25,247 nt of DNA from a virus (IMGVR_UViG_3300032738_000257:1-25247), one strand, 5' to 3'; counted from the stretch's first letter, positions 3,584 to 24,689 are shown. Numbers and translations: made by a program. Notes: generated by a model not told the origin, from the sequence alone.

Positions 3584-6205
3584 CTAATGTTCTCCCTTAC
3601 CTAATTCTTCTCTTATGTTTTGTAGCGCAGTTAAATAGTCGTTAGCTTTACTTGCTGCAGTTTTAAATGCGTCAGCGTTATCTCCTATTTGTTCTGTTGA
3701 AATATACAATTCTTTAGAGAATAAAGGTAGCGTACTACTGTGCATACCAATCAATAAATCATTAAAGTTCCCTGTGAAAATTGCAGTGTTATATGTAGCG
3801 TCACCCAAAAGACCCATTTGAGTTGAAGCAGCTTGCGCAGCTGGTACAAAACCCTCTGGGCCATATAACGCGGTTGCTGTAGCACTCAACGCGGGTGCAA
3901 ACTGATTTTCAACTTCATCAGCAAATTTAACAACTCTCTCCGCTGCATCGGCTAAGAGAGTCGTGGTATAATCTGTATTTTCCATGGCAGAGTTAAGTAA
4001 TAATACTTGTGAAGTCAACCCATTTAAACTACCCGTAGCTCCATTAATTATTGGTGGCGTCTTAGCAAATTCTTTATTTAAATCTGGAACTAATGAGTTC
4101 CCTACGAGTGGTTCCAATGGATTTATAGCATCCCATGCTTCGTCAGTCCAATCTGATAACTCTCCTGTCGCGGCATCTATAACGCCACTAGTTGTAAGAT
4201 TACTGAATGCGGTCTTAGTGTCATTTATTGAGGAAGATACTCCTTCTGGTAATTTAAAGCCAGACCAATTAATACCCTCTATATTTGATTTTATCGCTGC
4301 TGTCGCACCTGCCGCATCGTTTAAATAAGAACTAGATATTTCAATAAACTTACTATCTGTGCCTTCCATTTGACTACTAATTTTATCCCAATCTATTTCA
4401 ACAATTGGTTCTAAATTTATCGGATGTTTTATCGTTCCGCTCGGAGCAATTGCACTTTGCGCTAGCTTTGCTATTTCTTCATCACTAGCATCTTCATAAT
4501 CCAACATCCAATCTATTGCTAAGAAAGCCGCAATAGGAATTAAAACTGGTGCAAAAGCAGAACCAGCAAATGCAGCTAGCGCTCCTGTAATTCCCACACC
4601 AATTGCCGCTAGCAAACCACCCAGACTACCACTCGCCGCACCGGAGCCCGACATATATGCGCCCGCTTTCCAAACTCCAATCCATTTACCAATATCTAAA
4701 ATAAAATCTAGACTTTTTGTAATTGATTTCTTCTTCTTTTTCTTGCCATCTAAAAAATCCAAAGAGTCTAATACTCCTCCTGCGAGTCCATCATCATCTT
4801 CATTTATATTTATAACAACATTACGGTCTCCATCAATATCATCTAAAGAGTCAGCAATATCTTCTAGACTGCGTGAATGACTAGCGAGTTCTGCTATTTC
4901 ATCCTCCATGTCATCTACATTTTTAATCCCTTTTCTAGTAATGGAATCATTTAATTTATTCAGAGCTTTATCCAAGGAGTCTATATCTTTCCGCAATCCG
5001 TTTCTCCCGAGGTCTTCTAGTTTTTCTTCAAAGTCCTTTAGTTTTTTAGTAGCATCTTTACCTATTCCTAACTTTGATAACACCTTCCTTAATGCGCGTA
5101 GTCCTGCTAATATTGCACCCCCGAATATTTTTTTAAGACCATCTAAAAGCAAAAGTAGCGAAGCTAATATCATACCGACTCCTGTAATAGCACCTATTAC
5201 TCCTAACCAAAAAGCTATTTTTTCAAGGACATGTACGGGCATCCGTGATAACCAATTAATAAATGTAATTAACATATCTATCATTTTTTTAAATAAAGGA
5301 GATTGACTTAATGCAGCTATTATTCTGAACTTTAAAAACTCCCAAGCGGCAGATAGCTTATTGGTTTGTTTTGTGAATTCTCCTTGCTTATTAGTAACTC
5401 TTTCATAAGTAGTTATAGCACTTCTAAAGAAAGCCATTATGTACCTATTCAACATCATAAATCCAAACATAAGAGAAAGAAGTTCCATTCTAAACTTTCG
5501 TGTAGAATTACGCAGAGTCATCATAAATCGTCTAGTGCCCATCATTTGTCCAGTAAGCTGATTAAATGCTACAACTCCACCATTCGCAGTTACTCTTATA
5601 GCCACACCTAATTGCTGCATCTGGCTTATAAGTTGTTGTAATGGTATACCTAATTTCATTGCGGCAGTCTGTAAATAAACTAAACCTTTTCCATACGTAG
5701 ACTGGTCAAACCCAATCATAACTCGCGTAGCTTGTTCTAACCCACCAGAAAGAAGATGAAATGCTCTCTCCGCAGACATTACCTTCCCAGTCATGGTATC
5801 AATTACTGCAGTACGAGACCCCAATTGTATAAACTCCATATTCACCGCTTTTAGGCGTTGGGTTAAAGCATCAAACGTTTTTTGTGGGAGTAAGTTAGAC
5901 GATACAAGTCCAAATTGCTGTGCTTTTTGAATAACTAAATCATAATTTTGTCCCAAGCTACTAATTCCTGTTATAATTCTCTTAGTGGCTTGCGCATAAC
6001 TCGTACCAACTACCGTAGAACTAGCAGTTGCGTGTTTAGATATTGCATCTAACTGAGACGCCATAGTGTTCGTTGAAACATTAAATCGCTTTGCCATCGA
6101 TTCTACTGTTTGTCCTAAACCAACAACACCAGAAGTTACTGTTTTAATTCCTGCCGACTTAGCAATCAAATCAAGAGTTATTTGAAGCTTTCTATCATCT
6201 GCCAT
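3584..6205 (-). CDS. Tape measure protein
   Basis: 873 aa, the longest gene in the window. The N-terminal third is helical and Gln/Ser/Thr-rich with repeated amphipathic stretches (VVGLGQTVESMAKRFNVSTN). A hydrophobic segment lies near residues 240-262 (LSLMFGFMMLNRYIMAFF), another around 330-355 (GVIGAITGVGMILASLLLLL) and a Gly/Ala-rich one around 515-560. Charged helices and a poly-Lys run (GKKKKKKS) lie between them. This mix of coiled coil and membrane-active helices, and the position just after the frameshifted chaperone, are the classical signs of a siphovirus tape measure, which sets tail length and enters the host envelope on injection. If the common rule of about 1.5 angstroms per residue applies, the tail would be roughly 130 nm. 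ATG at 6205 follows the chaperone extension's stop by 3 nt. Confidence 0.88.
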   Translation of the reverse strand: MADDRKLQITLDLIAKSAGIKTVTSGVVGLGQTVESMAKRFNVSTNTMASQLDAISKHATASSTVVGTSYAQATKRIITGISSLGQNYDLVIQKAQQFGLVSSNLLPQKTFDALTQRLKAVNMEFIQLGSRTAVIDTMTGKVMSAERAFHLLSGGLEQATRVMIGFDQSTYGKGLVYLQTAAMKLGIPLQQLISQMQQLGVAIRVTANGGVVAFNQLTGQMMGTRRFMMTLRNSTRKFRMELLSLMFGFMMLNRYIMAFFRSAITTYERVTNKQGEFTKQTNKLSAAWEFLKFRIIAALSQSPLFKKMIDMLITFINWLSRMPVHVLEKIAFWLGVIGAITGVGMILASLLLLLDGLKKIFGGAILAGLRALRKVLSKLGIGKDATKKLKDFEEKLEDLGRNGLRKDIDSLDKALNKLNDSITRKGIKNVDDMEDEIAELASHSRSLEDIADSLDDIDGDRNVVININEDDDGLAGGVLDSLDFLDGKKKKKKSITKSLDFILDIGKWIGVWKAGAYMSGSGAASGSLGGLLAAIGVGITGALAAFAGSAFAPVLIPIAAFLAIDWMLDYEDASDEEIAKLAQSAIAPSGTIKHPINLEPIVEIDWDKISSQMEGTDSKFIEISSSYLNDAAGATAAIKSNIEGINWSGFKLPEGVSSSINDTKTAFSNLTTSGVIDAATGELSDWTDEAWDAINPLEPLVGNSLVPDLNKEFAKTPPIINGATGSLNGLTSQVLLLNSAMENTDYTTTLLADAAERVVKFADEVENQFAPALSATATALYGPEGFVPAAQAASTQMGLLGDATYNTAIFTGNFNDLLIGMHSSTLPLFSKELYISTEQIGDNADAFKTAASKANDYLTALQNIREELGKGEH

Positions 6206-7302: not shown

Positions 7303-8235
7303 TTACTTCACCTCCTCTAAAGTTTTTTTGAATGATTCTCTACAAACATCTCTTGAGTAGAAACCAACGCCCTTTTCGGCTACTTCTAAAATCTCTGACT
7401 TAACCTTTTCATCCGCCAATAAATCTATAGCTGCCCGTATCTTTGTAAAGTTATACGGGTCTGATGTAAGCTTCGGAAACAAATTCCTTTGAGCTTCCGA
7501 AAACATACTACCAATACATGGTATTCCCATGGCGGCAGCCTCTACCGAAACTCGACCATATGTATGTATGGTTGTTGGTTCGTATAAAAAAGAACATTTT
7601 GCCATATGTTTAACTATATCTTCATATTCACAGTATTCAATAATATTTGGAAACAAACTGCTTATAACGCCCCAATGTTTTGACTCTTTTCTAATATAAC
7701 CCAAGAGCGCAGGCGTATAGCCCATTCCTTTCAATGCTATGTAAGGTGAGTATATTTGGTCATCGTACCTGTGATACATAACCCCGGCAACTTTCTTAGG
7801 TGCTTTTTCAATCTTTCTTAAATAATCTAAATCCGCTGGATGCGGAATTCTGTAAACTTTTCTCTCTAACAATGCTGCTAGAGCTGACGCCAAACAATAT
7901 TCTGTAGCGATTACTACATCTGCAGAATCTGTCATATGCCTTAATAAAAAAGGATGTCCATATCGCTGTTGCCAAAGTTCTATTGCGTAATCTGTACATG
8001 CAACAATTTTCGTGGATGAAGAGTTACCAATTATCTTCCGTACTTCCGGAATTAAATTGGCATCCCCTCCAGTCATATTGATATGGACAACGTCATACTT
8101 TTCGAAATCCTCTACCCTACTAAATACCTCAATATCACCATCAAATACCTGTAACCACTGATAAAACCCTGTTTTATGCTTAATTTTAGGCAGGGCGTTC
8201 TTATCAAACCAGTTGGTTACAGTTAAGTATTTCAT
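7303..8235 (-). CDS. GT-B glycosyltransferase inserted in the tail operon
   Basis: 310 aa, cytoplasmic, no membrane segment. The pattern fits GT-B (GT4-like) enzymes: an N-terminal Rossmann half with FEKYDVVHINMTGG (44-57), a linker-like IPHPADLDYL (130-139), and a C-terminal half with EPTTIHTYGRVSVEAAAMG, giving E219 and E232 close to the E-x7-E donor-binding motif, then GIPCIGS. It would move a sugar from a nucleotide donor to an acceptor that cannot be told from sequence. It separates the tail tube gene from the tail chaperone, an unusual place for an enzyme and typical of a cargo ('moron') gene. It may glycosylate virion proteins. The ATG is 2 nt after the previous stop, with no SD. Confidence 0.75.
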   Translation of the reverse strand: MKYLTVTNWFDKNALPKIKHKTGFYQWLQVFDGDIEVFSRVEDFEKYDVVHINMTGGDANLIPEVRKIIGNSSSTKIVACTDYAIELWQQRYGHPFLLRHMTDSADVVIATEYCLASALAALLERKVYRIPHPADLDYLRKIEKAPKKVAGVMYHRYDDQIYSPYIALKGMGYTPALLGYIRKESKHWGVISSLFPNIIEYCEYEDIVKHMAKCSFLYEPTTIHTYGRVSVEAAAMGIPCIGSMFSEAQRNLFPKLTSDPYNFTKIRAAIDLLADEKVKSEILEVAEKGVGFYSRDVCRESFKKTLEEVK

Positions 8236-8237
8236 GT

Positions 8238-8780
8238 TTACAAGTTATTGATGTAGTTCGCTGTTGGTAGGGCGCTCGTTGAAGCATCGTCAGTGTATTC
8301 TTCTACTGAGTTACTAGACAAACACTTAAAGTTTATAGTTTCCTCAAAGAAATCATCAGTGTTTAAGCTAAGTTCTCTTGTTACTCCGTATGCACTCTTG
8401 TATGTTAAACGTCGTAGCTCTCTAGTAGCCGTAGCGTCAGTTCGTAGCAAAAGCTGAATGTGTGCTTGACTTCTTGTTGAGTCTCCTGTAATTGCGTGCG
8501 GCATTGCGCCTACTGCAAAGAAACTACTATCAGTTCCACCAGAATGTAGTGATGCAAAATCCACATCAGTATGCAATAAAGTAAGGGATATTTCCCACAT
8601 CTCCATTGATTTCTCGTGTCCAAATTCATTGGCTCCAAACGTTTTAATTTGTTCTACATCTCTGTCTCCACCGCTTACACTAAATTCTCGAATTTCACCA
8701 GTAACTACTGTACTCGATGCTTCTCCCGTCGGTCGTATTCTAAGGTCAGACACAAGGTCAGACCACCATATATTTACCAT
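8238..8780 (-). CDS. Probable major tail tube protein
   Basis: 180 aa, beta-rich by eye, no Cys-rich or membrane segments. Features typical of tail tube proteins include an N-terminal strand, a paired ISLTLLHTDVDFASLHSG section and ELSLNTDDFFEETINFKC near the end, where tube proteins often have a strand recording the imposed change (EETINFKCLS). It follows the tail completion genes and precedes the chaperone and tape measure, with one glycosyltransferase and a zinc protein between. A strong AGGAGGT about 11 nt upstream of ATG 8780 suggests high expression, as expected for a subunit made in many copies. No specific family is certain. Confidence 0.7.
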   Translation of the reverse strand: MVNIWWSDLVSDLRIRPTGEASSTVVTGEIREFSVSGGDRDVEQIKTFGANEFGHEKSMEMWEISLTLLHTDVDFASLHSGGTDSSFFAVGAMPHAITGDSTRSQAHIQLLLRTDATATRELRRLTYKSAYGVTRELSLNTDDFFEETINFKCLSSNSVEEYTDDASTSALPTANYINNL

Positions 8781-9735: not shown

Positions 9736-10107
9736 CTATATGTGTTGTATCTTATCAGTCAGTACACGTTTATAAATCTTTGTACCGCTTACAGCTATGG
9801 CTGATAATCTAGTTACTTCATAATCATCACTAAATATACTAACTTTATCACCAAGGTCTATGCCAACAGTTGGTTGACAGACAAGTATTACCCGCGAAGT
9901 AATCGGACGACCGAACTCGCGTACTTCTCTAATCTCCTCCTTGCTAGCAGGAGCCATGGCTGCAAGAAAGTCAGTAGCTGCGCCATATGATATAGTTTCA
10001 TCTCCTCTTGCGTTATAAGTTGGTGTAGCAGACCAATAGTTAAAACTAGCTCCAAAAGCTTCTAGAACTTTCGTTACTCCTTTCCTCGATATGTCTACTA
10101 CCGCCAT
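9736..10107 (-). CDS. Probable head closure protein
   Basis: 123 aa. The sequence VLEAFGASFNYWSATPTYNA, then a middle with EFGRPITSRVILV, LGDKVSIFSDDYEVTRLSAI and the end YKRVLTDK form a small beta barrel pattern as in head-tail stopper proteins (SPP1 gp16 / HK97 gp7-like). It lies between the connector and the tail terminator. No clear SD precedes ATG 10107; it follows the connector gene by 6 nt, so translation is probably coupled. The role is inferred from size, pattern and order. Confidence 0.6.
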   Translation of the reverse strand: MAVVDISRKGVTKVLEAFGASFNYWSATPTYNARGDETISYGAATDFLAAMAPASKEEIREVREFGRPITSRVILVCQPTVGIDLGDKVSIFSDDYEVTRLSAIAVSGTKIYKRVLTDKIQHI

Positions 10108-10525: not shown

Positions 10526-10560
10526 TAAAAAAAATAAAAAAGCACAGGCTTATGCCTGTA
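10526..10560 (-). terminator. Intrinsic-type terminator over the stop of the repeat protein
   Basis: Minus strand: ACAGGC-ATAA-GCCTGT (10559-10544), extended by a U-G pair, then CTTTTTTATTTTTTTT. The loop contains the TAA stop of the repeat protein. Archaeal polymerase stops at T-runs, so this would end or thin transcription before the connector gene. Confidence 0.65.
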
Positions 10561-11788
10561 CTTGACCAAAGGCCATCCAATTAACTAATTTTCCGTGTGC
10601 ACCGTATATACTTCCACCAGTAGTTCCTATGTTGCCTACACCAGCAAGTGTTCCTGCTGTAACGTTTTCACCATATCCTGGTACTACATGCGGAGCTGCA
10701 TCAAATGTTACGCCCCAAGAAACTGGGTTCGCACCACCAGACATAGTTGTCCCGCCGGTTATAATACCGTATGCTTTAGTTGAACTATCTAGTCCTACAA
10801 CTGTTGGATATGTTCCCGCTGCTACGTTCCTTAAGAATACATTCTTCGTACTTGCTACAAATTCGTCGCCACTAACTACACAATCTCCAAGAATTGAAGT
10901 TGTACCTGTTGGTGTATTAAATGCACCCACTGAAGAACTGTAATCTATATTACTAGTTCCACCTACCGCGGTTATATCTACGCCAGTTGCTATGCTAACT
11001 GCACCGTTCAATAAAGTAGTTCCTGTGCCAGTTGTAAATGGATTTACTCCCGATACAACTACGCTTCCACCTAATGTATTCACGCCAGTACTTGTTTTAA
11101 AAGTACTAGTCATCGCACTGAAATCAACTGCTCCTGCACCAGCTAACGCGTCAAGCGTTTTACCTGCTGCTAATCGCACGTCACCACTCATAGTCGCTAG
11201 TCCTGTTGGTGTCTTAAATGTTCCTGCTGAAGCACTGTAATCAATATTCGTAGTTCCTCCTGCTGCCGTTACATCTATTCCAGAAGCGATACCTACCGCC
11301 CCATTTAGAGTAGTTGCTCCAGTAGGAGTCTTAAACGTACCAACCGAACCGCTGTAATCTATATTAGTTGTTCCGCCTACCGCCGTTATATCAATACCGG
11401 ATGCGATACTTACCGGACCACCTAACGTAGTCGTTCCTGTTGTAGTTTTAAATGTACCAGTTCCTAAACTTAGGTCAACTGCTGTTGTTCCTGCTGCACA
11501 ATCAAGGTCTTTGTTTGCTGCAATAGTTATATCTGTACTTAGTCCTAAAGTTCCGCCAATTGTAACTGCACCAGTAGTTGTCTTAAAGGTTCCACTAGAA
11601 CCAGAAAAGTCAATCTCTGGATTGCCCGAGGTTGTTATGTCTGCATATAACGTTACCGTATCTGTTGTAGCATCTCCTAATTGTGTATCACCCAGTACTG
11701 TTGCATCATCTGTTACTGTAATATCATCTTTTACGGCTACATCTTCCACGTTAAGGTTTGCCCTTTTCATTCCGTCTTTCATTCCCAT
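10550..11788 (-). CDS. Repeat-rich probable head fibre or decoration protein
   Basis: 412 aa, very Thr/Gly/Ala/Val-rich. A repeat of usually 39 aa begins GTFKTPTG and continues with 'TLNGAVGIASGIDVTAAGG' and 'TNIDYS'; units start near residues 66, 111, 150, 189, 228 (short), 255 (partial) and 288. Such repeats suggest a beta-solenoid or trimeric fibre. The C-terminal 110 residues differ (YGIITGGTTMSGGANPVSWG ... NWMAFGQVQA) and may be the distal domain. It lies between the capsid gene and the connector, so a capsid-attached fibre is the best guess; a tail fibre is possible. GAGGT precedes ATG 11788. A terminator hairpin overlaps each end of the gene, which may set its dose separately from the capsid. 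Confidence 0.65.
   Translation of the reverse strand: MGMKDGMKRANLNVEDVAVKDDITVTDDATVLGDTQLGDATTDTVTLYADITTSGNPEIDFSGSSGTFKTTTGAVTIGGTLGLSTDITIAANKDLDCAAGTTAVDLSLGTGTFKTTTGTTTLGGPVSIASGIDITAVGGTTNIDYSGSVGTFKTPTGATTLNGAVGIASGIDVTAAGGTTNIDYSASAGTFKTPTGLATMSGDVRLAAGKTLDALAGAGAVDFSAMTSTFKTSTGVNTLGGSVVVSGVNPFTTGTGTTLLNGAVSIATGVDITAVGGTSNIDYSSSVGAFNTPTGTTSILGDCVVSGDEFVASTKNVFLRNVAAGTYPTVVGLDSSTKAYGIITGGTTMSGGANPVSWGVTFDAAPHVVPGYGENVTAGTLAGVGNIGTTGGSIYGAHGKLVNWMAFGQVQA
10837..11593 (-). repeat. Degenerate tandem coding repeats, about 117 bp
   Basis: Protein-level repeats of usually 39 aa (117 nt) with the core GTFKT[TP]TG recur six to seven times. DNA copies are diverged but share tracts such as the GTFKT codons and those for 'TNIDYS'. 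They are in-frame units of the fibre-like gene, not CRISPR or intergenic repeats. Confidence 0.7.
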
Positions 11789-15667: not shown

Positions 15668-15675
15668 TATATAAA
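15668..15675 (-). promoter_or_regulatory. TATA box of the virion operon
   Basis: TTTATATA on the minus strand, preceded by AAAAAG and followed directly by GTACT, 29 nt from the portal ATG. It lies 7 nt after the terminase stop, in the only gap of the packaging/head junction. It has no copy of the AACGTTTCTAT operator, so it is probably regulated differently from the terminase promoter. Confidence 0.75.
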
Positions 15676-15682
15676 CTTTTTG

Positions 15683-17101
15683 TTATATGAGAGGAGTAAC
15701 AAATACTTCGCAAGCCCCCGTACGTTCATCATGTGCCGCGTGAATAGCTAAAGCGATAGCATCCACCATATCATCGTGCACCCCCTTAGTATGGTGCAAT
15801 AATGTTCTACCAGACATCCCTTTAGTGTATGTAAACCCGTGTAGCTGTTTTTCCAACTCATCATCATGTGGTAGCGTTAAGACACGTTTTTCCATAAGCA
15901 TTAACATTCGGTCAAACATCTCTACCTTAGACTGCTGCGACATTGCTATCCCATCTACCAAAATTCCCTTTTTCTCTAATTCTTCTAATTGACGTCGACC
16001 ACTACCTAAATCAGATAAACCACCCATTATATTGAAACGCTTATTAAGTTCATATACATAATCTAATGCTTCGCCATAATTACGTTCTTTAAGTTCTTTT
16101 AGGACGACTACACTATACCTGCCGTCATTATTTTTATCCTCAGAGTACTCTAATATTACTATGACTGTAGAATCTTGGACTTGCCCCCAGTCTATACCCA
16201 AATAATACTCTTTCTCTGGGTTTCCTTCATAAAGAAGTATTTTATCTCGCATACAAGGTATAAACGTTTTATATGGGAAAAAAGCGTCAGACTCATCAAC
16301 AAAGCGAGCACCATACTCCTGTCGAAATTTAATACTAGGCATTTGGTCTGCTTGCTTCTTATAAAATTCTTCATTGTGTATTGGACAGGTCAATGTACCA
16401 ACTCTCGCTGCATCTAACCCAAATTGCGCTGCGGCCTGTTTATTTATCCTATATGGTAAACTATACACTTCCGAATCTGGGTCTTCTTGCCACTTATTAT
16501 ACATACTCCAAAAAAATCCACGCTTTCCTTTGGGGGTCGACATGATAATCAGTCTGCCATGAGTGGCTGCAAGCATTGGCATTATAGATTCATAAAATAT
16601 GGAATCATCAGCAAACATCGCTGCTTCGTCTAATATTACCATATTAGGAGAATAACCTTTAATTGTTGCTTCAGAAGTGGGTAATGCAACTATTATGCTC
16701 CCGTTCTTAAACGCTAGTTTTGTCGTAGAACTAGATATTACATCATTCTTAAACTCAGAGTCCATAACAACTCTAGTAAGCTTTCTAAGTAATTCCGAAG
16801 ATTGCTGCTGGCTTCTTGATATAATAAGCACCTGGCAGTTTTTCCTAGTCGTAGCAGTATGTATTCCTAAAATCTCTGCTATGGATGATTTACCAGTCTG
16901 CCGAGATATATTCAATAAAATACATGGCGCTTTGCTACGCAATATTGTTTTTTGGTACCAAAATAATTGCATTGGTTTATCGGGGTCATTAAAATCTCTA
17001 AGAAAAGTCTCAGCAAAGAATACTGGGTCAGTCTGTATTTTTAACAAAGTTTCTTTAGCTTCCTTTTTACTCAAATCTGCAAACGGTGCTTTCTCAGCCA
17101 T
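15683..17101 (-). CDS. terL: Terminase large subunit
   Basis: 472 aa, the packaging motor and nuclease. Walker A SRQTGKSS is at 66-73, Walker B VILDEA at 155-160 with E159 as catalytic Glu, and the coupling motif STP at 188-190. The RNase-H-like nuclease domain has LGIDWG (D304), a second acid in LSDLGSG (D364) and HDDMVDA (D443/D444/D447). All key residues are present, so it should be active. Length is usual for the family. It starts 8 nt inside the end of the probable small subunit gene. It sits in the operon headed by the winged-helix regulator, not in the portal operon. Confidence 0.95.
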   Translation of the reverse strand: MAEKAPFADLSKKEAKETLLKIQTDPVFFAETFLRDFNDPDKPMQLFWYQKTILRSKAPCILLNISRQTGKSSIAEILGIHTATTRKNCQVLIISRSQQQSSELLRKLTRVVMDSEFKNDVISSSTTKLAFKNGSIIVALPTSEATIKGYSPNMVILDEAAMFADDSIFYESIMPMLAATHGRLIIMSTPKGKRGFFWSMYNKWQEDPDSEVYSLPYRINKQAAAQFGLDAARVGTLTCPIHNEEFYKKQADQMPSIKFRQEYGARFVDESDAFFPYKTFIPCMRDKILLYEGNPEKEYYLGIDWGQVQDSTVIVILEYSEDKNNDGRYSVVVLKELKERNYGEALDYVYELNKRFNIMGGLSDLGSGRRQLEELEKKGILVDGIAMSQQSKVEMFDRMLMLMEKRVLTLPHDDELEKQLHGFTYTKGMSGRTLLHHTKGVHDDMVDAIALAIHAAHDERTGACEVFVTPLI

Positions 17102-17609
17102 CAGTTATCTTCCTACTTAATATTTGTGTAATAGATTCGCCATCGTCAACAACCTTTAATTCTTTCTGTGCTCTAGAGCGTCTATCCATAAATAAATCTA
17201 TACCTGCATTTCTAAGTAACTTCTGATAACTAGAATCAAGAGTATTTGATAGTGCTACTAATTTCTGTAAGTCCTTGTTCGTTTTAAAGTCACCCTTTAG
17301 CATTTCTTTAAGAATAGTATCATTAACTAGTAGTAACTTTACATAGTTCATAACTAGCAAATACAAATTAGCTAAATCATAAGATTTCTCTATCCCATAC
17401 TCGTCTCTCCACCTTACGAAAAGGTTTCTAGCTATGGATGCTAATGCTTCGTCAGGTATGGCTTTTTCGAAGTAACCTTGCTCCATATCTTTAATATGTA
17501 TATGTCCTTTTTCATCTTCTATGAGATATTTTCTTAAAACCTTCGCTTTACGCATATTCTCTTCTGAATCAGGTATCTTAGAAATTACCGTAGCTATATC
17601 TTTTTCCAT
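17094..17609 (-). CDS. Probable terminase small subunit
   Basis: 171 aa, nearly all helical. The part LANLYLLVMNYVKLLLVNDT followed by NKDLQKLVALSNTLDSSYQK and LLRNAGIDLFMDRRSRAQKE resembles P27-type small terminases, where the last helices form the oligomer ring. A small subunit recognises the viral DNA and regulates the large one. It directly precedes and overlaps terL by 8 nt. The family match is by pattern only; the position strongly supports it. Confidence 0.65.
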   Translation of the reverse strand: MEKDIATVISKIPDSEENMRKAKVLRKYLIEDEKGHIHIKDMEQGYFEKAIPDEALASIARNLFVRWRDEYGIEKSYDLANLYLLVMNYVKLLLVNDTILKEMLKGDFKTNKDLQKLVALSNTLDSSYQKLLRNAGIDLFMDRRSRAQKELKVVDDGESITQILSRKITDG

Positions 17610-17629: not shown

Positions 17630-17974
17630 TTACCTTCCGCCGAATCCGAATATTTTTTTGATTAAAGAAGGTTTAGATACGCTAACTTTATTGCTTGTAC
17701 TTTTTTCAGTTTCTACCTGTTTCTTAGCTTTTTCGTATTCTACGTACAACCTTTTGACTAAATCATAATTTGCAACGTGCAGTTTATCCTTTTTTTTCCG
17801 TATGTGTGTTAAAACTCCGTGTGGGTTTTGTAATTTCTTAATGCACAATGGACAAACATTTGGCTCTACTTTTATTCGCTTTCTAATCCTACTATCACCG
17901 TGGGCTTTTTCTATATGTGTGTTTAAGTCTCCCTTCGCTCTAAACTTAAACCTGCAAAATGGACAACAAACCAC
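17630..17974 (-). CDS. Two-finger C2H2 zinc-finger protein
   Basis: 114 aa from GTG 17974. Finger 1: C4-x2-C7-x12-H20-x4-H25 (CPFCRFKFRAKGDLNTHIEK); finger 2: C41-x2-C44-x12-H57-x8-H66, with a longer His spacing. A Lys-rich helix follows and the end (SLIKKIFGFGGR) is amphipathic and basic. It probably binds DNA or RNA. The GTG start is chosen because GGAGG lies 5 nt before it and it joins the regulator's stop as TAGTG; the frame is also open to a TTG at 17986. C2H2 proteins are common in archaeal viruses and rare in bacterial phages, which supports an archaeal host. Between a regulator and the terminases, a role in gene control or packaging is possible. Confidence 0.75.
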   Translation of the reverse strand: MVCCPFCRFKFRAKGDLNTHIEKAHGDSRIRKRIKVEPNVCPLCIKKLQNPHGVLTHIRKKKDKLHVANYDLVKRLYVEYEKAKKQVETEKSTSNKVSVSKPSLIKKIFGFGGR

Positions 17975-18177
17975 TATATCCTCCAAAAAGTAAGACTTCC
18001 TATCTTTAATTTCTCTATCTTTCCGCTTTCGCTAAGAGCCTCTAGCACTTGAAGAGTAAACTTCCAAGAACGGCCTATTGCTCGCTGTACCGCATATGTT
18101 GACATATGCGCATTACTCAATACGTTAAATGCTTCCCCTTTAACTATATTCCTTGTCTTTTCTGATATTCTTGACAT
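17974..18177 (-). CDS. Winged-helix transcription regulator
   Basis: 67 aa, a single winged helix-turn-helix: helix 1 ISEKTRNIVKGEAFNVLSNA, the HTH MSTYAVQRAIGRSWKFTLQV, then LEALSESGKIEKLKIGSLTF forming the wing (GKIEKLKIGSLTFW). It should bind DNA as a dimer. The ATG is 27 nt after the first base of its TATA box, so the mRNA is leaderless. The box sits in an inverted repeat also found at 21143-21174; autoregulation is likely. It heads the operon with the zinc-finger and terminase genes, so it would control packaging genes together with itself. Confidence 0.8.
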   Translation of the reverse strand: MSRISEKTRNIVKGEAFNVLSNAHMSTYAVQRAIGRSWKFTLQVLEALSESGKIEKLKIGSLTFWRI

Positions 18178-18183
18178 AGTATT

Positions 18184-18215
18184 CTATAAACGTTCTTATA
18201 TAAAAACGTTTCTAT
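18184..18215 (-). promoter_or_regulatory. TATA box in an inverted-repeat operator (regulator/terminase operon)
   Basis: Plus-strand reading: CTATAAACGTT (18184-18194), spacer of 10 nt, AACGTTTCTAT (18205-18215). The TATA box (TTTATATA, minus strand, 18204-18197) fills the spacer, so a bound repressor would block TBP. Both arms contain the palindrome AACGTT, 16 bp apart centre to centre. The distal arm overlaps the stop of the epimerase gene. The same layout occurs at 21143-21174. Confidence 0.75.
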
Positions 18216-19186
18216 TTGTCCCCTCCTAGTAAGTACTGCATTCCTTGTGATAAACTCTTGGCTTTTGTGCTAACTAACTTATTTTTGTTATATAACGTAT
18301 ACTTCCACTCTGTGTCTTCTCTAATAGTTACACAAGGTTTCATAAGCAAATCCGCCTCTACTTGTAGGCCACCGCTATCTGTTATTACTCCTGCAGAGTT
18401 TGAAACTAGCTCTAAGAACTCTTTATAAGGTATTGGTTTAACTAACTCCAAAAACTCGTGTCTAGTGAAGTCTAGCCATAACTCATTTTCTTCCATAATC
18501 TTCCTTGTGTGCGGATGGACTGGAAAATACACTTTATAGCCACTATAAGCAAAGTTTAAAACTATCGCATTTAGTATGTTACGTAAGTTACCTATATTTT
18601 CTATGTTTTCCCTACGATGGAGGGTAAAAACTATATGTCTATTTGCTGGTTTTGTTAGTATATTAGACATTCTAAGCGTCTCTGCCTGAAAGTTTGGAGT
18701 TAAATGTAGATTCCCCCGAACTCCTTCCTTAACTAAGTTTTCATAGCAATGTATATCTGGCGCGAGCAATACATCCGCTAGTTGGTCTACACATCTACGG
18801 TTATGCTCTTCCTGTACAATACCTTTAGCTCTACACCCTGCTTCTATATGCCCTAACTTAACGCCGCACTTTTTGGTAGCTATTGCCGCACCTAGCGTAA
18901 CGTTACAATCACCCACCACATATACACAATCTGGCTTCAACCTCTTTATTACTTCTTCAGTAGTTCTTATTGCCTTCGCTATAAAATCTCCCTGACTTTT
19001 GCTATCGTAACCTAACTCGTGATACTCATCAGGCATTGGTATATCTAAATCTCTAAAAATATACTCCGTTAATTCTTTGTCCCAATGTTGACCAATCCAT
19101 ACTACTTGCGCCTTCTGATATAATTTAAAAAAAGAAGGTAATTTAACTAGATTTGGTCTCGTTCCTACTATTACTATGTTTTTCAT
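18212..19186 (-). CDS. wecB: UDP-GlcNAc 2-epimerase, non-hydrolysing
   Basis: 324 aa, GT-B-like fold. It turns UDP-GlcNAc into UDP-ManNAc. Landmarks: N-terminal IVGTRPN (6-12), VVGDCNVTLGAA (D93), HIEAGCR (E115), QEEHNRR (E126/E127), FTLHRREN (187-193), VHPHTRK (H224/H226), ITDSGGLQVEA (268-278). The catalytic D/E/E/H set is present. It is shorter than the usual ~370 aa, mainly at the C-terminus and in loops, but no motif is missing. It overlaps the zinc-ribbon gene by 44 nt; the start must be at 19186 because the first beta-strand begins there. It is last in the glycan cassette and its stop touches the operator of the next operon. Confidence 0.9.
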   Translation of the reverse strand: MKNIVIVGTRPNLVKLPSFFKLYQKAQVVWIGQHWDKELTEYIFRDLDIPMPDEYHELGYDSKSQGDFIAKAIRTTEEVIKRLKPDCVYVVGDCNVTLGAAIATKKCGVKLGHIEAGCRAKGIVQEEHNRRCVDQLADVLLAPDIHCYENLVKEGVRGNLHLTPNFQAETLRMSNILTKPANRHIVFTLHRRENIENIGNLRNILNAIVLNFAYSGYKVYFPVHPHTRKIMEENELWLDFTRHEFLELVKPIPYKEFLELVSNSAGVITDSGGLQVEADLLMKPCVTIREDTEWKYTLYNKNKLVSTKAKSLSQGMQYLLGGDK

Positions 19187-19382
19187 CTATCCACTCCAAA
19201 GCGAACAACGCTTCGCATTCTGCACACTTCAAACCCGTTGCGCCTAAGTCTGGTCTAACCTTGCCTTTAGCAATCGCGCGTTCAAAACATCCTACAGAAA
19301 ATTTAAAGTTATCTTCACAAGTCCCGCAGGTTGCACTACCACCGCTCTTTACCAATCTCCACTCTTTAGTTATGTGTTCCAT
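19143..19382 (-). CDS. Small zinc-ribbon protein in the glycan cassette
   Basis: 79 aa. CGTCE (C19/C22) and KCAECE (C53/C56) give a four-Cys zinc site, with C32 extra. Hydrophobic LFALEWIDEK follows the second pair. No family recognised. It overlaps the sulfatase-like gene by 17 nt and the epimerase by 44 nt, an unusually long overlap for this genome. It might bind protein or RNA; nothing ties it to sugar chemistry except its place. Confidence 0.65.
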   Translation of the reverse strand: MEHITKEWRLVKSGGSATCGTCEDNFKFSVGCFERAIAKGKVRPDLGATGLKCAECEALFALEWIDEKHSNSRNETKSS

Positions 19383-20229
19383 TTGGTGTCTTTGTATTAT
19401 CTAATCTTTTAATCATGCTGAGATTATAAATTAATAATGGTACGTGGAACATATCTGTATGATTTCCCCACGCATGGAAGTATCTATCACAATCATCTCT
19501 TAGAACAGTTCCATGGTCTGCGGTAACTATTACTACAGGGTTTCCTGGAAGCTTTTTGTGTATTCTTTCGAATACCTGGTCTAAATATCTTATAGCTTCT
19601 ACTTGTTTATCTAAAAGATACGCTAAGTGCGCCTTTGCTGGCTTTGGCTTTGGATAAAACCTACCCAATCCAAGTTTTTTATCATCAGGCATTTTAAAGT
19701 GTGGCGTATCAAACCAATAGTGAGTTTCCCCCATTAAAAATATTGCATAATAAGGTTCTTTTATATTTTCAACTTCTTTTACAATCTCTTCTCCAGCTAA
19801 TTCTGGTTTATCAGGGTGAGTATTAAAAAAGGACTTATAAGTACTAAATTGGTCTTTGTATGGCCAGAACTCAGTTATACCAAACCCCGTATAAAAATAC
19901 GTATTATACCCTACTTTATTAAGGTTTGGAATCATCTCAAAATCAGGCATTAAAACCTGCTCACTGCCATCAGAATGAGGTAATCTTCCACATAAAAGCG
20001 CAGTCATTGCAGGAATAGTCCAGTTACAAGGAGCCCATGCATCGTCATAGTAAAATCCATTGAATGAGTTAGCTAACTTGGTAAAATAAGCCGGTTGTGC
20101 ATGTTTAAACTGGTATTCTGGGACCGAATCCAATACAAATATTACAACATTCCTAGGTTCTGGGGCACCAAACAATTTTTTCTTAGGTTTGATGGCCTCA
20201 TCACTTACTTTGCGTCTTTCTTCTATCAT
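19366..20229 (-). CDS. Sulfatase/alkaline-phosphatase superfamily enzyme
   Basis: 287 aa from ATG 20229 (the frame is open to TTG 20238). The metal-binding VIFVLDSV (D34), the nucleophile region APCNWTIPAMTALLCG (66-81) and the second metal site VTADHGTVLRDD (D238/H239) identify the superfamily. The nucleophile block is of the 'WT-x-P' kind, so T71 is the likely nucleophile; C68 is not in a CxPxR formylglycine setting, so true sulfatase activity is doubtful. It may remove or transfer phosphate or sulfate groups on glycans. No signal peptide, so it acts inside the cell or in the virion. It is shorter than typical (400+) but has both metal sites. It overlaps the glycosyltransferase by 29 nt. 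Confidence 0.8.
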   Translation of the reverse strand: MIEERRKVSDEAIKPKKKLFGAPEPRNVVIFVLDSVPEYQFKHAQPAYFTKLANSFNGFYYDDAWAPCNWTIPAMTALLCGRLPHSDGSEQVLMPDFEMIPNLNKVGYNTYFYTGFGITEFWPYKDQFSTYKSFFNTHPDKPELAGEEIVKEVENIKEPYYAIFLMGETHYWFDTPHFKMPDDKKLGLGRFYPKPKPAKAHLAYLLDKQVEAIRYLDQVFERIHKKLPGNPVVIVTADHGTVLRDDCDRYFHAWGNHTDMFHVPLLIYNLSMIKRLDNTKTPNGTHN

Positions 20230-21094
20230 TTTTCTCAATTATTTTCTTATACTCTTCGTGAAGAACCTTAGCTATTGTATCAGCATCGTGAGTTTCATCA
20301 AATTCACTAATAACGTTAAATTCTCCATCTTTAATCATATCTATTGATGTAGTTATTGCTTTTCCTCCAGTAGCTAACATTTGTAGCGAAGTATAAGACA
20401 ATTCCGCATCCCCTGATAAATCATTTAAAAAATACTCATATTTATTCAACAATTCAGACATTTCGTCATATGGAACCCAATTTTCTTCTCTAATTATTAT
20501 TTCTACAGGAACGCCTAACTTTTCCTCTATTAGCGAGACCATCCGATTACTCGCCCCTAACGGTTCAGTAACTGTTCTAAAGTACAAAACACAGTGCTTT
20601 CTATTATCACAGTATGGCTTAATTGGTTTAAATACGCGCTTATCCACTGGGTTTGGAAGCCACATTGGTTTTGACTTATACCTATATCGCTTTACACTTT
20701 TCTCTAAATCCTTCGTAGAATAAAGCACCAAATCCGCCGCTTCTACACCAAGTACCAACGGTCCACTGTATTTATTCCTTATCTCACTACCATGAAAATG
20801 TAATACTATATTATCGCAACAAAGCCCGCGTAGATGTGATGCTGTTAAATAACTCGCATGAACATGAATAATATCTGCACTCATAAGTTCAGAACTTATT
20901 TCATTAATCATATTAAACCATTCAACACCCGCAGTACTTGAGCATAAAACTGGTTGATAAATTGTCCCCCCAAATCCTTGGTGATGATAACCTTTTACGT
21001 TATAACACTTAGCGTCAACGCCCTCTATTCTATTAAGCGCCTCCACTAAAGTCGCAGCAACATTTGCTTGATTACCAAGATGAATAACTTTCAT
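20201..21094 (-). CDS. GT-B glycosyltransferase (GT4-like)
   Basis: 297 aa, cytoplasmic. N-terminal Rossmann half with IHVHASYLTASHLRG (76-90), the acceptor/phosphate loop LHFHGSEIR (98-106), a linker LPNPVDKRVF (146-155), and a shorter C-terminal half with LSYTSLQMLATGGKAITTSI near 240, the E-x7-E region reduced to 'ELSYTSLQML'. It probably transfers a sugar from a nucleotide donor. First gene of the glycan cassette; its ATG is 31 nt from the first base of a TATA box, so leaderless. With the sulfatase-like enzyme and epimerase it could alter the host envelope or virion glycans. Confidence 0.78.
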   Translation of the reverse strand: MKVIHLGNQANVAATLVEALNRIEGVDAKCYNVKGYHHQGFGGTIYQPVLCSSTAGVEWFNMINEISSELMSADIIHVHASYLTASHLRGLCCDNIVLHFHGSEIRNKYSGPLVLGVEAADLVLYSTKDLEKSVKRYRYKSKPMWLPNPVDKRVFKPIKPYCDNRKHCVLYFRTVTEPLGASNRMVSLIEEKLGVPVEIIIREENWVPYDEMSELLNKYEYFLNDLSGDAELSYTSLQMLATGGKAITTSIDMIKDGEFNVISEFDETHDADTIAKVLHEEYKKIIEKNDRRKTQSK

Positions 21095-21117
21095 TTACTA
21101 CTATATACGAGTACTTA

Positions 21118-21125
21118 TATATAAA
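21118..21125 (-). promoter_or_regulatory. TATA box of the glycan cassette
   Basis: TTTATATA on the minus strand in AAGTTTATATATAAGTACT, 31 nt from ATG 21094, so leaderless. It shares AAGTTTATATA and a downstream GTACT with the virion operon promoter. It is back to back with the plus-strand TATA box at 21152; 26 nt lie between the two boxes. Confidence 0.75.
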
Positions 21126-21142
21126 CTTATCGCTATGACTAA

Positions 21143-21174
21143 ATAGAAACATTTATATAGCAAAACGTTTCTAT
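21143..21174 (+). promoter_or_regulatory. TATA box in an inverted-repeat operator (plus-strand RNA)
   Basis: ATAGAAACATT (21143-21153), 10-nt spacer, AACGTTTCTAT (21164-21174). The arms are inverted copies with one mismatch. TTTATATA (21152-21159) lies between and partly in the left arm. Compared with the regulator promoter at 18184-18215, the left arm matches 10 of 11 and the right arm 9 of 11, with the same spacer length. Transcription should start near 21180-21184. Confidence 0.75.
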
Positions 21175-21180
21175 AATACA

Positions 21181-21246
21181 TGGGGAGTCACAATTCACTC
21201 AGCTCATTTTTTCACCTAAAAACTTGTTCTGAGTGCCTCCCCACCA
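21181..21246 (+). ncRNA. Predicted structured small RNA
   Basis: A three-part stem: TGGGGAG (21181-21187) with CTCCCCA (21237-21243), an 8-nt bulge on the 5' side, CACTCAG (21196-21202) with CTGAGTG (21229-21235), and an apical TTTTT/AAAAA hairpin (21208-21222). Its 5' end falls at the predicted start of transcription from TATA 21152, and CCA follows the closing stem. It has no T-arm or anticodon arm and is not a tRNA. A 30-codon frame (ATG 21180, stop at 21272) also fits leaderless reading, so a peptide cannot be excluded. It may be a free RNA or the leader of the 49-aa gene. Confidence 0.5.
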
Positions 21247-21249
21247 ACT

Positions 21250-21294
21250 TTACATATGTAATATTTATATAGTAGTAATTCGTTACATATGTAA
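21250..21294 (+). promoter_or_regulatory. Twin 12-bp palindromes bracketing a TATA box
   Basis: TTACATATGTAA occurs perfectly at 21250-21261 and 21283-21294, 33 bp apart (about three helical turns). TTTATATA (21264-21271) lies between, and the second copy ends on the A of the start ATG at 21294. A dimeric repressor on both sites would cover TBP site and start point and could loop the DNA. Not related to the AACGTTTCTAT operator. Confidence 0.7.
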
Positions 21295-21443
21295 TGCCAA
21301 TTCCAAAACCAACTCCAAACGAGGAACAATCCCATTATATTTCACGTTGCATAAGCTTTCTGAAGAACGAAAAACCAGATATGGACAGTAAACAGGCCGC
21401 AGCAATCTGCTTTCAAACATGGAGAGATACTAAAAAAGAGTAG
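21294..21443 (+). CDS. 49-aa protein with conserved RC...AICFxxW motif, only plus-strand gene
   Basis: Reads MPIPKPTPNEEQSHYISRCI, then SFLKNEKPDM, then DSKQAAAICFQTWRDTKKE. The pattern P-x-P-x-P..E....[YF]ISRC....Q-A-A-A-I-C-[FY]..W recalls a short domain often seen, alone or at the start of larger proteins, in phage genomes; this is from memory and no function is established. ATG is 30 nt from the first base of its TATA box, so leaderless. The stop TAG directly abuts the stop of the convergent HNH gene (TAG|CTA). It is controlled by its own operator, so it may be an early or lysogeny-type gene. Confidence 0.7.
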   Translation: MPIPKPTPNEEQSHYISRCISFLKNEKPDMDSKQAAAICFQTWRDTKKE

Positions 21444-23935: not shown

Positions 23936-23955
23936 ATCTATATACAAACACTCTC

Positions 23956-23963
23956 ATATATAA
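23956..23963 (-). promoter_or_regulatory. TATA box of the small-gene operon
   Basis: TTATATAT (minus strand) in AAGCTTATATATGAG, with C in place of the first T of the consensus. Its spacing places transcription start at about 23935, exactly on the ATG. It lies in the 34-nt gap after the nuclease gene. Confidence 0.65.
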
Positions 23964-23969
23964 GCTTTT

Positions 23970-24689
23970 CTATCCATTAATCTCTAATTTAAGTGTATTT
24001 GGCAGTTCTGGCTTAATAACTGGCGTCTTTGGGTTCTTAAATTTCCACACAGCAAACGTATGCATAAATACATCGAATAATTGCCCTGGATTATCTATCT
24101 CAGACAAGTACCACCCCTTCTTTGTGCGGGCACCCAGTATTAAGTCTCCACACCGTTGTATCTTTGGACAATCCAAAATACCTAAGTCCACTAGCATATT
24201 TATGGCCTTCATATAAGCCGCTAGCTGTAAATTATGCGTATCTCGCACTGCTTTTGATGTTTTGAAATCTATTAACCATATATCATCACCTATTTGACAA
24301 ATTAAGTCCGTAGTACCACCATATCCCTTGCCAGGATGATAAATAGTCTGTTCTGCCAATATTGGCTTAAAACTAGGTAATGTACTAACCCAATCTACAA
24401 ATCTATTTATAAACTTCCATTCGTTTTCGTTATATTGATTAACATAAAGTGTTTCTCCGAGTATTAATTTATGTATGGCATTGTGGGCGTTGGTTCCTTC
24501 CCTAGCAGCTTTATCTCTTATTCTATCTGCAGCCATTCCATTTTGCTTTAGCCATTTATTGAATGGCTCGCCCTTTGGAAACGCGTTTAATATTGTAGTG
24601 ACTGAAGGATAAAGAAAACCTTCTACACCATAATAATGCGAACCATTTATTGGCTTCATTTCACATCTGACATCTTGATAGTATTTCAT
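23970..24689 (-). CDS. RecB/Cas4-like PD-(D/E)XK nuclease
   Basis: 239 aa from ATG 24689. LYPSVTTILNAFPKGEPFNK (27-46) is the standard opening of phage RecB-like nucleases; then GTNAHNAIHKLI with H69/H73, AEQTIYHPGKGYGGTTDLIC (E113, D128), WLIDFKTSK (D141, K143) and HNLQLAAYMKAI (Q155). These make the complete catalytic set of the PD-(D/E)XK fold. There is no Cys cluster as in Cas4, so it lacks an iron-sulfur site. It likely processes DNA ends in replication or recombination. The start is placed at 24689 where ATGA overlaps the upstream stop; the frame is open to 24758, including an ATG at 24719. Confidence 0.85.
   Translation of the reverse strand: MKYYQDVRCEMKPINGSHYYGVEGFLYPSVTTILNAFPKGEPFNKWLKQNGMAADRIRDKAAREGTNAHNAIHKLILGETLYVNQYNENEWKFINRFVDWVSTLPSFKPILAEQTIYHPGKGYGGTTDLICQIGDDIWLIDFKTSKAVRDTHNLQLAAYMKAINMLVDLGILDCPKIQRCGDLILGARTKKGWYLSEIDNPGQLFDVFMHTFAVWKFKNPKTPVIKPELPNTLKLEING

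Follow-up and report, generated by a model that had tools for sequence, protein, structure and literature searches.

A conserved operator around the TATA box at promoters of two related, probably archaeal tailed viruses, with a small winged-helix protein as its likeliest regulator

Two promoters in the virus record IMGVR_UViG_3300032738_000257 carry a common inverted repeat around their TATA boxes, and one of them reads into the gene for a 67-aa protein. An earlier note on this DNA read the pair as a regulon of that protein, taken to be a virus-encoded winged-helix regulator, and as a switch linking DNA packaging to a structured RNA. At issue are whether the repeat is a genuine operator, which genes stand under it, and which protein binds it. 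Transcriptional regulons have, to our knowledge, been defined for few tailed viruses of archaea. In what follows, the window is the whole stretch of DNA analysed, 25,247 bases in length.

The virus and its close relative

The genes of the window include a large terminase, a portal, an HK97-type capsid and a tape-measure-like protein, and thus mark a tailed dsDNA virus. Its start codons are preceded at ~20–30 nt by TATA boxes, the pattern of leaderless archaeal genes. An archaeal virus is among the best annotated-phage matches of the terminase, and in archaeal genomes the capsid search returned weak, distant relatives only. Judging from these sequence features, the host is probably archaeal.

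A single close relative was found in IMG/VR, contig IMGVR_UViG_3300032731_000360 (L006, also L170). It was recovered through an alignment of the terminase large subunit (TerL) with distant TerLs, and alignments of the capsid and of the winged-helix protein each returned this contig alone; single-sequence queries of IMG/VR with TerL or the winged-helix protein, and a first 26-mer pattern, gave no matches. Identity between the two viruses is 62% for TerL, 84% for the capsid, 70% for the sulfatase, 62% for the epimerase, 54% for the glycosyltransferase, 52% each for the winged-helix and zinc-finger proteins, and 61% for a 49-aa protein. What is said below on conservation of the regulon rests on these two viruses, the window and L006. 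Elsewhere in the window (10550–11788), a 412-aa protein with internal repeats of the FKTTTGA type looks like a repeat-bearing fibre or adhesin; the L006 version is expanded differently, to 469 aa.

A pair of operator copies in the window

The two copies are laid out as follows.

18179..18217, minus strand: copy A of the operator, covering the TATA box in the promoter of the winged-helix gene; its arms are 18184–18194 and 18205–18215, the dyad has its centre at the TATA box, and the ATG lies at 18177; orthologous site in L006 at 8112–8150
21141..21179, plus strand: copy B of the operator, covering the promoter of the plus strand; its arms are 21143–21153 and 21164–21174

In transcriptional orientation, site A (minus strand, 18217–18179) is AAATAGAAACGTTTTTATATAAGAACGTTTATAGAATAC and site B (plus strand, 21141–21179), which is followed by a predicted transcript start at ~21180, is AAATAGAAACATTTATATAGCAAAACGTTTCTATAATAC. 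The two are identical at 32 of 39 bases, with 10 of 11 matches between the left arms and 9 of 11 between the right arms. Arms, 10-bp spacer and the AATAC that follows the right arm are all present in both, as the earlier note had described for 18184–18215 and 21143–21174. Identity ends at the element (13/40 and 10/40 in the flanks), so the pair is not part of a larger segment duplication.

Two AT-rich TATA promoters might resemble each other by chance, and the 39-bp identity on its own is the weaker evidence here, since 32 matches were reached in one of eight shuffles. A joint test gives the stronger evidence. When pairs of 32-mers were required to be palindromic at 8 or more of 11 positions each and alike at 25 or more of 32, one pair in the window qualified, at exactly the A and B coordinates, and none did in 200 dinucleotide shuffles. 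Chance resemblance also fails to account for the prediction of orthologous promoters across the two viruses with the TATA columns masked. This held-out test, given below, refutes it, and we regard coincidence as hardly credible. The operator pair is real.

Conservation and cross-virus prediction

For the forward test, sites A and B of the window were turned into a weight matrix that scored the arms and ignored the TATA spacer. Over 20.6 kb of L006, it ranked the glycosyltransferase promoter at 4845 first (23.0) and the winged-helix promoter at 8112 second (22.4), while the maximum over 600 shuffles of L006 was 21.1, so that none reached 22.4. In the reverse test, a model trained on three L006 sites and applied to the window gave 21141 (25.9), 18179 (20.6) and 23937 (19.1) as the top places, with the next independent place at ~10; among 600 window shuffles, two reached 20 and five reached 18. 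The third place is a degenerate copy, ranked here by a model that was trained on L006 only.

23937..23975, minus strand: copy C of the operator, a degenerate one, covering the promoter that serves the 23935 operon; L006 counterpart 2545–2583

Site C reads GGATAGAAAAGCTTATATATGAGAGTGTTTGTATATAGATATG, in the same register as A and B. Its L006 counterpart at 2545 scored only 13.9 with the window model, a value reached by 104 of 600 shuffles, and its support is its position together with a pattern scan whose pattern came partly from 2545 itself.

That scan covered both full records (51 kb) and, at three or fewer mismatches, matched seven promoters and nothing outside promoters; several of the seven sites were also counted on the opposite strand, as a good dyad will be. 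The reversed pattern, run as a control over the same two records, gave no matches. Because the pattern was drawn from sites of both viruses, the scan tests promoter restriction and is not an independent prediction. Both searches proposed earlier thus came out in favour of a regulon: the genome-wide scan returned promoters only, and the pattern is kept in L006, the sole close relative that keeps the genes.

Across IMG/VR, exact pattern matches with a TATA box and a placed ATG were found only in the lineage of the window and L006. A looser operator pattern matched the L006 contig and 13 others, and the others were rejected. For example, the match in L178 lies inside a coding frame and that in L180 on a 60% GC contig without a TATA box; the remaining contigs lack a TATA box or a placed ATG. 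As a separate observation, the unrelated viral contig L180 has two AAACGTTT cores (ATAGAAACGTTTGCAAATAGAAACGTTTCTA) upstream of a gene at 9821–9859; this may be a coincidence or a phage operator whose half-site is similar.

An operator at matching places in a related virus is therefore a real, virus-specific control circuit, conserved and restricted to promoters.

Anatomy of the operator

The half-site consensus is ~AYAGAAACRTTT, and the full site reads AYAGAAACRTTT-N8-AAAYGTTTCTRT. At all seven promoters of the two viruses the best dyad register is identical and lies over the TATA box, and the distance from operator to start codon is near-constant. The arms match at 7–11 of 12 positions at six promoters and at 5 of 12 at the seventh (L006 4094), compared with 1–6 of 12 at seven operator-free promoters. 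At the L006 winged-helix promoter, AAACGTT/AACGTTT has become AAACATT/AATGTTT, a mirrored change in both halves of the kind expected of a symmetric site. The core AAACGTTT is palindromic in itself, and its two copies are 16 bp apart, ~1.5 turns, a spacing that does not suit one ordinary dimer well. With a palindromic core at this spacing, one dimer or two could bind.

The earlier note had listed the promoters at 15668, 21118, 21264 and 23956 as lacking the repeat. This holds for the first three, which score -6.3, 0.8 and -1.4, but not for 23956, which carries the degenerate copy C. A further nine promoters of leaderless type in the two viruses, those of the portal and of the L006 terminase among them, score from -6.3 to 1.8, and the arms are therefore not part of the general promoter.

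The arms could nevertheless belong to the core promoter, as an element specific to these viruses that sets a temporal class of promoters apart and is read with TBP/TFB or by an activator. The left arm does lie over the BRE position and the right arm between TATA box and start, with fixed spacing to the ATG, and SIRV1/2 promoters have a GTC motif downstream of the TATA box (PMC5569661). Against this, other TATA promoters in both viruses lack the arms, and core promoter elements are normally not dyads, whereas here a dyad is found in one register at all seven sites. We consider such an element improbable and continue to read the arms as an operator.

Transcription units under the operator

At least three transcription units have the operator at a promoter. 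One comprises the winged-helix, zinc-finger and terminase genes, the second is the divergent region that separates the 49-aa gene from the glycan genes, and the third is the 23935 unit. Features of the first two that are needed here are these.

15683..17609, minus strand: putative small terminase (17094–17609, by position) and large terminase (15683–17101, TerL by Pfam/PHROGs), downstream of the winged-helix gene and in the same direction
20201..21094, minus strand: glycosyltransferase gene, divergent from site B; its L006 promoter carries a full operator
21294..21443, plus strand: conserved 49-aa gene, 61% identical to L006 3434–3583; promoter B reads toward it, and it has a promoter of its own as well

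In the first unit, the winged-helix promoter carries the operator in both viruses. For the terminase genes of the window no clear promoter of their own was seen. In L006, however, an internal, leaderless TATA promoter at 8736 precedes the small-terminase gene; it lacks the operator and serves the small and large terminase, and packaging control is therefore not a conserved feature.

The second unit is organized differently in the two viruses. In the window, the full operator is at the rightward promoter B and the glycosyltransferase promoter is without arms; in L006, the full operator is at the glycosyltransferase promoter (4845–4883), and the rightward promoter at 4094 has a half-degenerate copy with a degraded left arm. 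The missing arms in the one virus and the degraded copy in the other indicate that the target set drifts. In the window, ~20 bp separate the TATA box of the glycosyltransferase gene from the edge of site B, so one bound site might affect both divergent directions. The window segment 18212–21094 encodes a UDP-GlcNAc 2-epimerase, a sulfatase-family enzyme and the glycosyltransferase, a cassette likely involved in glycan or surface modification and kept in L006, where it has an extra methyltransferase-like gene.

The divergent operator region of L006 also contains a 702-bp insertion (4138–4839) with perfect 24-bp terminal inverted repeats, TACATTGTTGCGTTAGAGGGACTT, and CGGTTATAT, a direct repeat of 9 bp, borders it on each side. 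If the insertion were taken out, the intergenic distance in L006 would come close to the 85 bp of the window. The two reading frames of the insertion, a 46-aa ORF and a 77-aa cysteine-rich ORF, have no Pfam matches.

The third unit, 23935 in the window (with the degenerate operator at 23937) and 2543 in L006 (site 2545), is a further regulated unit that was absent from the earlier list of targets.

The hairpin RNA and the 49-aa gene

The structured RNA of the proposed switch corresponds to a hairpin just downstream of site B.

21180..21246 (also placed at 21181–21245), plus strand: hairpin where the promoter-B transcript is predicted to begin

Its minimum free energy is -22 kcal/mol, a strong fold for so short a stretch (z -4.2; rank 18 of 8394 windows). 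The region has no Rfam match, the tRNA search was empty, and no counterpart was found in L006. Because the hairpin is not conserved, the structured-RNA switch is set aside; in addition, promoter B faces the conserved 49-aa gene, and the L006 terminase genes have an operator-free promoter of their own. The rightward promoter of the L006 counterpart also reads toward the 49-aa gene, by way of an 88-aa and an 82-aa gene. The hairpin is probably a leader or a relic of the 49-aa-gene unit; less probably, promoter B may yield a dedicated small RNA.

Two further observations belong to this stretch. A 30-codon ORF, MGSHNSLSSFFHLKTCSECLPTNFTYVIFI, at 21180–21272 runs from the predicted promoter-B transcript start, overlaps the hairpin and is placed as a leaderless start. 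The sequence TTACATATGTAA, a perfect palindrome of 12 bp, is present in two copies (21250–21261 and 21283–21294) at a distance of 33 bp. The copies flank the TATA box that serves the 49-aa gene and form another operator-like arrangement around a TATA box, different in sequence from the first; at the L006 counterpart promoter this palindrome is absent.

Of the earlier proposal as a whole, then, a regulon under a virus-encoded winged-helix protein is favoured by the retention of the site in L006 and its restriction to promoters, but the switch between packaging and a structured RNA finds no support.

Candidate regulators and a proposed mechanism

Two proteins of the operon at site A could bind it.

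17974..18177, minus strand: 67-aa winged-helix protein, encoded next to site A; orthologue 52% identical in L006
17630..17986, minus strand: 118-aa protein of the C2H2 zinc-finger type, whose gene overlaps that of the winged-helix protein; the rival candidate for binding

The AlphaFold2 model of the 67-aa protein (mean pLDDT 84.3) has the order H-H-H-E-E of a winged helix. Foldseek aligned it with SmtB/ArsR-type repressors and Z-alpha winged helices, none below E 0.001; the likeness to Z-alpha is one of fold only (1qbj, TM 0.80), a general winged-helix resemblance. Pfam and PHROGs searches gave no confident family assignment, and a comparison with solved winged-helix chains gave no sequence match. 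The predicted fold thus agrees with the winged-helix identity given to this protein earlier. Its gene adjoins the operator in both viruses, and on sequence grounds it is the likeliest regulator. L006 also encodes an 82-aa winged-helix protein (3608–3856; PF14947 HTH_45, E 3.5e-18). Its gene stands in an operon whose promoter bears the operator, and the protein is a candidate second regulator in that virus; it has no counterpart in the window.

The operator could be real and conserved and yet be bound by another factor, either the 118-aa zinc-finger protein or a transcription factor of the host. The zinc-finger gene overlaps the winged-helix gene and so shares its regulated promoter. It is kept in L006, where the orthologue passes the zf-C2H2 cut-offs with two fingers; the C2H2 matches of the window protein are weak and below cut-off. 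Host factors that act on archaeal viruses are known, for example Sta1 (PMC5569661). A long symmetric dyad is, however, better matched to a dimeric winged-helix protein than to two C2H2 fingers, and confinement of the pattern with TATA box and ATG to this IMG/VR lineage is a mild argument against a widespread host factor. We take binding by another factor seriously, as the less probable of the two readings.

Binding by the 67-aa protein is the reading that we favour, with some reserve. The protein would grip the arms on either side of the TATA box and, once bound, block TBP/TFB; this occlusion would repress the winged-helix gene itself together with the other operator-bearing units, until some cue relieved it. 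Because the dyad lies over the TATA box, occlusion of TBP/TFB, and hence repression rather than activation, is the more natural reading. The site itself is non-random, is found at orthologous promoters in the second virus and is restricted to promoters; the fold of the protein is predicted, and the binder, the sign of the regulation and the cue are what we infer.

More tentatively, these elements might make up a class of viral operator that is new, where a small winged-helix protein would hold the DNA on each side of the TATA box and compete directly with TBP/TFB across a multi-operon regulon (its own gene, the glycan cassette and a further operon). Promoters of such a regulon would gain and lose arms from one relative to the next, and in one relative a mobile element would have split the divergent region. 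With a predicted regulator, an operator defined precisely to 39 bp and seven promoters as targets, the two uncultured viruses offer a system sufficient for an in vitro repression test without culture of the virus.

Comparison with known systems

None of the operator sequences given in PMC4027180, PMC5569661 and PMC4284463 matches the present one, and the likenesses are of behaviour. Stf76, the 76-aa winged-helix regulator of the plasmid-virus pSSVx (homologue ORF80), has sites in its own promoter, one of them over the BRE, and autoregulation has been proposed (PMC4027180). Here, too, a very small winged-helix protein is encoded by a mobile element, and a conserved element resembling a binding site lies over the BRE/TATA of its own promoter in both viruses. 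The Stf76 operator is TTAAN7TTAA, in two sites 60 bp apart at one promoter (PMC4027180); the sites described here are not of that type but read AYAGAAACRTTT-N8-AAAYGTTTCTRT, with half-sites of ~AYAGAAACRTTT, and are TATA-centred and spread over several promoters.

F55 of the Sulfolobus spindle-shaped virus SSV1 is likewise a small virus-encoded regulator, which represses its own and several early promoters from sites over the BRE or the start (PMC5569661). The fold of F55 is ribbon-helix-helix and its ATAGATAGAGT repeats are in tandem, whereas here a winged helix goes with inverted repeats; the three helices and two strands predicted for the 67-aa protein are not the ribbon-helix-helix fold of F55, SvtR or AvtR. 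The SIRV GTC element, too, is a virus-specific cis element beside the TATA box of many promoters (PMC5569661), but it is described as a motif downstream of the TATA box and not as a palindrome around it.

Among head-tail archaeal viruses, the haloviruses phiH and phiCh1 encode Rep, which in phiCh1 is a winged-helix repressor and in phiH works at a divergent promoter region (PMC4284463). A predicted winged helix and a divergent operator region are present here, with no sequence relation shown, and unlike Rep the present operator is common to several promoters. No integrase or other evidence of lysogeny was seen among the genes examined in this record, which may be incomplete. In phiH, an ISH23 insertion between the repressor and a lytic gene parts operator from promoter (PMC4284463), and the 702-bp insertion of L006 lies in the equivalent divergent region. 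The nearest systems in behaviour are Stf76 (PMC4027180), F55, SvtR and C68 (PMC5569661), and the Rep proteins of phiH and phiCh1 (PMC4284463).
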